Of a stretch of 64,000 nucleotides of DNA, positions 59,048 to 64,000 are shown in pieces. Below the pieces are notes generated by a model. That model saw only the letters and a program-made list of their open reading frames with translations, was not told where the DNA came from and did no database searches. The DNA lies in assembly GCA_003285105.1 (NCBI GenBank), contig CP030158.1, forward strand, positions 3,206,664-3,270,663, given 5' to 3'. Within the stretch, counting starts at the first letter, position 1. Each line of letters opens with the position of its first letter. The DNA comes from Roseithermus sacchariphilus (lineage in GTDB: Bacteria > Bacteroidota > Rhodothermia > Rhodothermales > MEBIC09517). The position numbers and the translations under genes were made by a program.

Positions 59048-60277
59048 TCAGGTTTCCTCGTTCACGAAGGCGACGTGACGGAAGTAGGTCTGCTCCTCGA
59101 AGCTGGCCCCGAGCGCGCCGATGATGATGCCGAGCGAGGCGACGAAGGCCGCGAGGTTCAGGTAGTGGTAGAGGTGGACGGTCCCATCCAGCGAGGCCGC
59201 CCAGCCTTCCACCAGATGGGGGCTGAAAAAGGCGCGGGTGAGGCCCAGCGTGGTACCGAAGAGCAGGACGTACATGGTGAACATCCCGAGGAGGACGGCC
59301 AGGCTGATCGAGACGTTGCTGACGACGCGCTGCTCGGCCAGCCCCCGGCGCTGCCGCCGGAGCAGCAACTGTTGCCGCCAGATGATGTAGGCGCTCGTCC
59401 CCATGAGGGCCAGCAGCGACACGCCGACCACCCGGGCGGGAGGCTGGCTCATGCCCAGATCCCAGGCCTCGGCGGTGAGGAGCAACACCGTCAGGGTCGA
59501 TGCCGCCGCGGTCGTGAGCCGGCTGAACCAGAAAGGGAACTGCCACGGTCGGATCTCGCCGACGGCCGCCAGGATGTCCGCCCATCCCAGCAGGATCACG
59601 CGCAGGTAGAAGAGCAGCGCGTTGTTGCGGTGACGGCCGGTTTCTTCCAGGCGCACGTCGGCCACGTCCTGCAGGGCCTCCTCCAGGCGGTTCGCCCCCT
59701 CGGGGCCAAAGCGCACCATGTGGTCCAGGTCGGTCACGGTCTTCAGGTCATACATGAAGTCCGCCGGGTCATCTTCCTCATGAGGCAGGTCGTTCAGGTG
59801 GCCGAAGAGGTGCAGCGCGAGCGAAACCACGCGCCGGGCGAGGCGTTCGGCCCGCTCCTCCTCGCCGATCAGCTCGGACGCCGCGGCCGGGTCGATGCGC
59901 GCCGTGGAGAGGGCGGCCACGCTGACGGCCTGTGACGGCGTTCCCAGTGCGTAGGGCTTGTAGTAGCTCCTGAGGTCGCTGTCGGTGACGACGAGGGCAA
60001 AGTCCCAGTGCCGGGTATCCCGTTCCTGCACGCCCAGGTCGAGCAGCTTGACGGGTTCCAGCGGGCTGCTGCGGTCGAACTCGCGACGCAGGACGAGGGG
60101 CATCCGCCACGTGAAGGCGGGAAACTGCGCCTCCAGGAGCCGCAGCACCCGGCTCCGGGCGGCCTCCACGGCCTGCACGTCGATGGCGTCGAGCCGGCCG
60201 GCCAGCACCCAGCCGACTTCGATCAGGGCCAGGGATTCGGGGGCGGCGTCGGGGGCGGTGGCCGGGGCGTCGGGCAT
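59048..60277 (-). CDS. Archaemetzincin-like membrane protein without the catalytic Glu
   Basis: A 409-residue protein with two parts. Residues 10-190 resemble archaemetzincin: 'WDFALVVTDSDLRSYYKPYALGTPSQAVSVAALSTARID' followed by 'RVVSLALHLFGHLNDLPHEED'. In the zincin motif HExxHxxGxxH the three His are kept (H156, H160, H166), but the Glu is Leu157 and the Gly is Asp163, so proteolysis is not expected although zinc could still bind. The archaemetzincin Cys ligands are also absent. From about residue 210 there are four or five transmembrane helices ('ASTLTVLLLTAEAWDL', 'VVGVSLLALMGTSAYIIW', 'SISLAVLLGMFTMYVLLFG', 'LNLAAFVASLGIIIGALGA'). Family assignment is by motif reading only. It precedes chrA's stop by 48 bases on the same strand order. 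Confidence 0.6.
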   Translation of the reverse strand: MPDAPATAPDAAPESLALIEVGWVLAGRLDAIDVQAVEAARSRVLRLLEAQFPAFTWRMPLVLRREFDRSSPLEPVKLLDLGVQERDTRHWDFALVVTDSDLRSYYKPYALGTPSQAVSVAALSTARIDPAAASELIGEEERAERLARRVVSLALHLFGHLNDLPHEEDDPADFMYDLKTVTDLDHMVRFGPEGANRLEEALQDVADVRLEETGRHRNNALLFYLRVILLGWADILAAVGEIRPWQFPFWFSRLTTAAASTLTVLLLTAEAWDLGMSQPPARVVGVSLLALMGTSAYIIWRQQLLLRRQRRGLAEQRVVSNVSISLAVLLGMFTMYVLLFGTTLGLTRAFFSPHLVEGWAASLDGTVHLYHYLNLAAFVASLGIIIGALGASFEEQTYFRHVAFVNEET

Positions 60278-62136: not shown

Positions 62137-64000
62137 CTACGGGTCGGTCGACTGCAGGAGTTCGAAGTAGCGTTTGATGAGCTCTTCGTAGTCGGGGGCA
62201 TAGCCGCTTTCCAGCGCCCGGATGAGGGCCCGGCGGAGCTGGTCGGCCTGTTCGGCCGGCGTCTGGCCCGGCGGGCTGTCACGGTCGAACAGGTCCTGCT
62301 CGGGCCGCTGGCCCTCGCGGCGGTTTTCGCGGCCGCGTTCGCGGATGGAACGTTGCGCGTCGAGCAGGCGCGTCAGGATCTGCTGCTGGCGCTGGACGGT
62401 CTGCCGGTTGACGCGGTTGCGTTGCAACTCCTGGATCGTCTCTTCCATCTGCTCCGCGATCTTGTTGAGATCCCCCAGCAGCTTGCCGCGGGCTTCCGGG
62501 TTGCGGCTCATCTCCCGGAGTTGCCGGCGCAGGGCGTCCTGCTGGGCCGCCATCTGCTGGAGGCGCTGTTGCATGTCCGACGTGAGGCGGTCGCCCTGCA
62601 TGTCGTTGAGGAGTTGCTGGAGCTGCTGGTTGAGCTGCTGCTGCTGCCCGGCCATCTGCTGGAGCTGCTGGATCATCTGCTGCAACGACATCGAGCCGCT
62701 GCCGCCGCTCTGCTGCATGTTCATGAGCTGATCGAGCAATTCCGAGAGCAGCAGGGCCAGCTCGTTGAGGTGCATCATGGAGCCTTTCTGATGCCCGGCG
62801 GCGCGGACGGCCGTGCGTTCGGCGAGGGCCTCCGTGGCCGAGGCCATCTCGCGCAGGGCCTCGCCGGCCTGCTGCTGGACCTGGCGGCTCATCTGCGGGA
62901 TCTCCCGTGCCAGCCGCTGCAGCGAGTCGCTGACGACCGCGAGGCCTTCGCTGAGCTCGACCTGGCGCTGGGCGTAGGTCCGCAGCTGGGGGCTGTCCGA
63001 GGCGAGGCGGCTCACGTCCCCGCGCAGGCTTTCCTGCTGCTGGGAGAGGCGGAGGATGTCGTCCAGGGCCCGGCGCAGACCGGCCCGATTGATCTGGATC
63101 ATCTGCCCCTGCATGCCCTGCTGCATCTGCTGGAGCTGTTGCTGCATCTGCTGGAGCTGCTGCTGCATCTGCTGCTGGCCCTGCTGCGCCTGATCGAGCC
63201 GGTTCTGGCGCAACTGCTCGGCATTCTGCTCCATCTGCCGGGGCAATCGCCGGGCGTCTTCGTGGAGTTGCTCCATCTCGTCGGCCGGCGTGTTGCGCAT
63301 CTGCTCCATCTGTTCCAGCAGGTCCCGTAGCTGCTCGGCCAGCTCCTCCATCTCCTCCCGGGAACGTTCCTGCTCCCGGGCCAGCCGCTCGGCGTCCTGC
63401 GGCTGCTCGCCCTGCGGCTGCTCGTCCTGCGGCTGCTCGCCCTGCGGCTGCTCGCCCTGCGGCTGCTCGCCCTGCGGCTGCTCGCCCTGCGGCTGCTCGC
63501 CCTGCGGCTGCTCGCCCTGCGGCTGTTCGCCCTGCGGCTGTTCGCCCTGCGGCTGTTCGCCCTGCGGCTGTTCGCCCTGCGGCTGTTCGCCCTGCGGCTG
63601 TTCGCCCTGCGGCTGCTCGTCCTGCGGCTGCTCGTCCTGCGGCTGCTCGTCCTGCGGCTGTTCCTCTTTGAGCCGGCGGGTCTGTTCGGCGAGGCGTTCC
63701 TGGCGGCGGGCCAGCTCCTCGGCGCGGCGGGCGGCTTCCTCCAGGTTCTGTTGCAGACGGATGCGCTTGAACAACTCCAGCGCCCGCTCCAGCCGCTGCT
63801 GGTACTGCTCCTCGTTGAACTCGAAGTCCTGCAGCGACTGTTGCATCTGCGGCAGGTCGAGGTTCTGCATGGCTTCCTGGAGCCGCTGGAGGGCTTCCCG
63901 TAGCTCCGGCGAGTTGATCTCCTCGACGGTCTTCTGCAGCTCCCGGTACAGTTCGAGCGTCTCCGGGCTGACCAGGTCGTTCTCCTCCATCTGCTCGGAG
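62137..64000 (-). CDS. DUF4175-type coiled-coil protein with Gln-rich repeats (5' end outside the window)
   Basis: At least 621 codons; the frame is open to the right edge (…SEQMEENDLVSPETLELYRE), so the true start lies beyond the window. The visible part is almost entirely charged coiled coil: 'LELYRELQKTVEEINSPELREALQRLQEAM', 'RRAEELARRQERLAEQTRRL', then 18 copies of EQPQ(G/D), then Gln/Met-rich helices (MQQQLQQMQQQLQQMQQGMQ) and a final region with 'GSGSMSLQQMIQQLQQMAG', ending 'ESGYAPDYEELIKRYFELLQS'. This fits the C-terminal part of the large Bacteroidota DUF4175 membrane proteins, whose N-terminal helices would be upstream. Function unknown. Confidence 0.7.
   Translation of the reverse strand, partial: SEQMEENDLVSPETLELYRELQKTVEEINSPELREALQRLQEAMQNLDLPQMQQSLQDFEFNEEQYQQRLERALELFKRIRLQQNLEEAARRAEELARRQERLAEQTRRLKEEQPQDEQPQDEQPQDEQPQGEQPQGEQPQGEQPQGEQPQGEQPQGEQPQGEQPQGEQPQGEQPQGEQPQGEQPQGEQPQDEQPQGEQPQDAERLAREQERSREEMEELAEQLRDLLEQMEQMRNTPADEMEQLHEDARRLPRQMEQNAEQLRQNRLDQAQQGQQQMQQQLQQMQQQLQQMQQGMQGQMIQINRAGLRRALDDILRLSQQQESLRGDVSRLASDSPQLRTYAQRQVELSEGLAVVSDSLQRLAREIPQMSRQVQQQAGEALREMASATEALAERTAVRAAGHQKGSMMHLNELALLLSELLDQLMNMQQSGGSGSMSLQQMIQQLQQMAGQQQQLNQQLQQLLNDMQGDRLTSDMQQRLQQMAAQQDALRRQLREMSRNPEARGKLLGDLNKIAEQMEETIQELQRNRVNRQTVQRQQQILTRLLDAQRSIRERGRENRREGQRPEQDLFDRDSPPGQTPAEQADQLRRALIRALESGYAPDYEELIKRYFELLQSTDP
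63394..63660 (-). repeat. 18-copy 15-bp coding tandem repeat (EQPQG/EQPQD)
   Basis: A 15-bp unit encoding Glu-Gln-Pro-Gln-Gly or -Asp is repeated 18 times without interruption. Reading along the protein the last residue is D, D, D, twelve G, then D, G, D. The Glu codon is GAA in a block in the middle and GAG near the ends, which suggests local expansion by slippage or unequal exchange. Confidence 0.95.

Follow-up and report, generated by a model that had tools for sequence, protein, structure and literature searches.

The gene at positions 59048..60277 on the minus strand of the window (the entire 64,000-nucleotide stretch of Roseithermus sacchariphilus DNA analyzed here) codes for a 409-aa protein that joins an N-terminal archaemetzincin-like domain to a C-terminal membrane module. 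The reading that we favor, with moderate confidence, is that it is a membrane-tethered, cytoplasm-facing pseudo-archaemetzincin in which a structural metal would serve binding or sensing. The gene is delimited by its open frame and by full-length homologs in genomes of the same order, and the frame, strand, coordinates, and residue numbers given in the original prediction are exact. The protein is devoid of cysteine throughout its 409 residues, and no second copy or other archaemetzincin match was found in the genome (4.8 Mb, one contig).

Profile searches and structure prediction both relate the N-terminal half to the archaemetzincins, as had been predicted. The NCBIfam archmetzin model NF033823 matches residues 87-186 of the window protein (E=1e-7), with a score of 32 bits that lies far under its curated cutoff of 145 bits, and NF033824 (non-proteolytic archaemetzincin-like), which we take from its name to stand for CarG, matches with E=0.0019 and 18 bits against a cutoff of 250. 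Across the 26 family members scanned, NF033823 matches 25 (best 1.5e-14) and NF033824 matches 22 (best 5.1e-8). The Pfam M54 model (PF07998), which had been proposed for this comparison, gave no match in the window protein and only weak ones in relatives. A profile of the family itself also retrieves true soluble archaemetzincins from Bacteroidota and Acidobacteriota (1e-8 to 1e-10), in each case through the first half only. The AlphaFold model, computed with 26 sequences as input, has a mean pLDDT of 86.5, rising to 91-97 in the block around the histidines of the active-site helix. In a Foldseek search with this model, the five best PDB matches are archaemetzincin chains (2x7m, 3lmc, 3zvs, and 4axq among them), headed by 2x7m (E=9.3e-7, TM-score 0.74 on the target), with fragilysins and ADAMs ranking behind them. 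These structures are of AmzA from M. kandleri (2x7m), A. fulgidus (3zvs and 4axq), and M. labreanum (3lmc). The archaemetzincin match is thus above chance, and the domain can be traced over residues 15-190 (59708..60235, minus strand; predicted to be cytoplasmic) from the NF033823 match, the AlphaFold model, and the Foldseek results. Two sets of candidates were rejected: DoxX_2 and DUF6692, the sole Pfam matches of the window protein taken alone, both fall under their cutoffs, and the matches grouped as f16 (E about 1e-4, around 310 to 320 aa, with HExxH) are other zincins that have the helix alone in common.

The domain follows the order of elements that had been described for it: the VTDSDL motif (residues 97-102) comes first, next YALGTPSQAVSVAALS, and last the zincin helix RRVVSLALHLFGHLNDLPHEEDDPADFM. 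The helix is predicted to span residues 139-161 (59795..59863, minus strand) and bears H156, H160, and a leucine at the position of the catalytic glutamate. We compared the site in 29 family members and nine canonical archaemetzincins. The three metal ligand positions are in register, as originally noted: H156 (59810..59812, minus strand) is present in 29/29, H160 (59798..59800, minus strand) in 26/29, with D, E, or R in the other three, and H166 (59780..59782, minus strand) in 27/29; judging from the fold match, they would cluster into a single site. To these we add the Met-turn methionine M175 (59753..59755, minus strand), absent from the original prediction, which is kept in all 29 members and in all nine canonical sequences. 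G159 is likewise invariant across the 29 members, and L161 is invariant in the family as well.

Position 157 itself, a CTC-encoded leucine in the window protein (59807..59809, minus strand), is occupied in the family by L in 13 members, T in five, A in three, S in two, E in two, and M, V, C, and Q in one each, so that 27 of the 29 have one of eight non-Glu residue types; in this alignment, loss of the glutamate is the rule. The expectation that homologs would never have Glu there holds for all members except two (L012 and L017, see below). The second canonical glutamate, E153, has given way to Leu in 28 members and to Phe in one; E153 and E157 are both present in 9/9 canonical sequences. The further substitutions reported for the window protein, Asp163 at the Gly position and loss of the Cys after the third His, are borne out, with E167 at the Cys position. 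Position 163 is D in seven members, N in seven, and G in 14. Both cysteines of the HCx4CxM motif are gone from the aligned family, with the Met staying in register, and the Cys4 zinc site of archaemetzincins (Cx4CxMx17CxxC) is absent from the window protein. The claim of a conserved metal site stands for the 25 members that keep all three histidines and fails for the other four, which have lost at least one (D in L008, E in L025, R and Y in L056, T in L057), two of them by replacement with Asp or Glu. Given these losses, the metal may be dispensable.

The window protein has 28 relatives: 23 from the same order, two from elsewhere in the phylum (L056 and L057, in two other Bacteroidota families), and three from Thermoanaerobaculia MAGs (L025, L089, and L090, reached via one such MAG and its class). 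A homolog is present in 18 of the 99 same-order genomes, and a search of the class added one further full-length homolog; 396 genomes of the Thermoanaerobaculia phylum yielded no members beyond these three. Close relatives are collinear along their full length, and several genomes carry a second paralog (L019-L023) of about 30% identity. The dN/dS ratios between relatives lie at about 0.04-0.3, in the zincin and membrane halves alike, which argues that the gene is under purifying selection and maintained, not decaying, in keeping with the earlier view that this is no decayed peptidase. The zincin domain is co-conserved with the membrane half.

The predicted membrane anchoring is upheld by hydropathy, charge, and structure models, which place the membrane part at residues 250-393 (59099..59530, minus strand). 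Where four or five helices had been proposed, we find four transmembrane helices, preceded by an amphipathic helical stretch. By the positive-inside rule, both ends of the membrane part are predicted to lie in the cytoplasm, and a cytoplasmic location is expected for the zincin domain too because the TM2-TM3 loop is Arg-rich (six Arg versus one acid) and no signal-peptide-like start is seen in the window protein. For the membrane half, DUF2391 (PF09622) and TIGR02587 are the only families matched by more than one member. PF09622 matches six of 27 family members (E<0.05, best 5.4e-6), passing its cutoff in four genomes of one genus and giving no match in the window protein itself, and TIGR02587 matches five. 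In profile-profile comparison with hhalign, the membrane half reaches a weak probability of 28-62% against these families, and no similar fold was found for it in the PDB (best E 0.5). The resemblance lies in TM2 and in TM1, where an E-x-W motif recurs in similar form (TAEAWDLG versus TMEVWWLG/TEEAWTLG), but DUF2391 proteins reach about 275 positions in length and lack a zincin domain. We therefore treat the likeness as a weak lead. In a separate 176-aa protein (L083:1483-2010, minus strand), the DUF2391 match is confined to profile positions 149-269, and family members cover positions 9-87; DUF2391 may have arisen by duplication of a four-helix unit within one protein.

The two members with Glu at position 157 come from one genus (L012 of genome G011 and L017 of G053), are about 50% identical, and have the sequence HELGHLNGLGH, with a GAA codon in each and hence a full HExxHxxGxxH. 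They could be taken to indicate an ordinary family of active archaemetzincins in which the window copy is merely mutated, the fallback that the original prediction had kept in reserve. Yet in trees built with and without the motif columns these two nest inside the Glu-less clade as sisters to members with HA and HT, and therefore this explanation is wrong for the window copy: a stem loss of Glu and one later regain require only two changes, versus 6-13 losses over the bootstrap trees (eight on the best tree) if no regain is allowed. Together with the lack of E153 and of the Cys of HCx4CxM in both proteins, and with the 27/29 non-Glu residues at 157, this makes an ordinary active family highly improbable. 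Since position 157 varies freely, regain of the Glu by drift is plausible and would not in itself be a sign of activity. A bolder proposal, which we regard as doubtful, is that the family comprises membrane-embedded receptors or regulators derived from a dead archaemetzincin, of which one genus re-evolved the Glu and the complete HExxHxxGxxH on a Cys4-less scaffold, yielding a re-armed pseudoenzyme. Sisters of which one carries Glu and the other does not form a natural comparison for asking whether catalysis can return.

The same residues could belong to a metalloenzyme with altered chemistry, of the hydrolase, lyase, or esterase type, in which the metal remains catalytic and the role of base falls to a different residue or simply to the water on the metal. 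The retained three-His site and Met-turn, the Glu at 157 in one genus, and two nearly invariant acids, E85 and D129, would suit such an enzyme. We nonetheless think it quite unlikely: D163, the most evident stand-in for the Glu, is an Asp in no more than 7/29 members, D129 is found in most canonical enzymes too and is hence not a replacement, the second ligand is non-His in three members, and the hydrophobic and small residues at 157 vary as would be expected of a site freed from catalysis. Alternatively, the membrane half might be the working part, as a DUF2391-like channel, transporter, or lipid-related module, with the zincin domain serving only as an appendage for folding or regulation, its metal site being lost to drift. 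By dN/dS the membrane half is under a constraint similar to that on the zincin half and has invariant residues of its own (W272, E315, and W359), four members have lost His ligands, and one relative has an extra, ion-channel-like N-terminal segment. Against this, the invariance of H156, G159, L161, and M175 exceeds what drift would leave, and we consider it unlikely. The segment in question is an observation on a protein from another Bacteroidota family (L079:6036-7640, minus strand, genome G521), in which it stands ahead of the zincin and membrane halves and resembles an ion transport protein (PF00520, E=0.0015, under the cutoff); the third His is lost in this protein.

Retention of the ligands and Met-turn, loss of both glutamates, strong purifying selection, and the membrane tether thus fit a metal-stabilized binding domain better than an enzyme, which is the pseudo-archaemetzincin reading that we prefer. 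Counted against it are the His losses in 4/29 members, the two full HExxHxxGxxH motifs, and the lack of a recurrent gene partner and of a CarD-like partner. We infer metal binding, absence of protease activity, a cytoplasmic orientation, and a role as scaffold or sensor. The N-terminal domain, with its archaemetzincin fold, would face the cytoplasm, where H156, H160, and H166 together with the Met-turn M175 would hold one metal ion, probably zinc, in a structural or sensing capacity. With the general base replaced by L157 and the second, Cys4 zinc site gone, it would not cut peptides; the old cleft would most likely bind a protein or ligand and hold it at, or signal to, the four-helix membrane module.

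The window protein shares with archaemetzincins (MEROPS M54/PF07998/NF033823) the fold, the register of the His triad, the Met-turn, an STxRLD-like strand, and the G in HxxGH, but lacks Glu157, Glu153, and the Cys4 zinc finger and, at 409 aa versus about 180 aa, has the four-helix membrane half in addition. To our knowledge, the physiological role of archaemetzincins is not settled. The sole well-established non-enzyme use of this fold that we found is CarG of Myxococcus xanthus, whose HQxxHxxExxHC motif binds zinc and which has no protease activity and acts via CarD (PMC8156234; PMC3427221). Like the window protein, CarG is archaemetzincin-like, has lost the Glu (to Gln) and kept the His triad, and has an acid in place of the Gly before the third His (Glu in CarG, Asp in the window protein). 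It differs in being a soluble monomer that carries the Cys motif, holds two zincs, and is coupled in myxobacteria to CarD; the window protein lacks both this motif and a CarD partner, possesses a membrane half, and matches NF033824 only weakly. With the help of this precedent, a sensor or scaffold role is a reasonable inference. Vertebrate AMZ1 is another archaemetzincin whose zinc site is altered and whose activity as a protease is in doubt, but the residue it lacks is the third His rather than the Glu, and membrane anchoring is not part of its description there (PMC3427221). A second Glu-less, Cys4-less, membrane-anchored branch in other bacterial phyla suggests that the fold can be kept for metal-dependent binding.

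The carD gene adjacent in the CarG type is absent here. No CarD-type partner was found in the genome, where the one PF02559 match lies elsewhere, inside a 1151-aa frame that by its length is probably Mfd. The window gene is preceded, after 48 bp on the same strand, by a chromate transporter gene (PF02417) and faces a convergent patatin gene (PF01734) downstream; the patatin neighbor is common to genomes G005 and G021, the chromate transporter being restricted to G005. In other lineages, the neighbors are endonuclease I-like, sodium/proton-exchanger-type with TrkA domains, and chalcone synthase-like or malonyl-CoA decarboxylase genes, and no gene partner recurs across lineages. In the f12 group (L069:4698-6044, minus strand, and L072:7491-8846, plus strand), an endonuclease I-like gene (PF04231), not seen beside the family gene in other groups, comes next after it; in L069 it overlaps the family gene by a few bases and has a lipoprotein-like product. 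Elsewhere in the window, positions 62137-63990 on the minus strand code for a Gln/Glu-rich, coiled-coil-like protein with tandem GEQPQ/DEQPQ repeats, the frame of which runs close to the window end.
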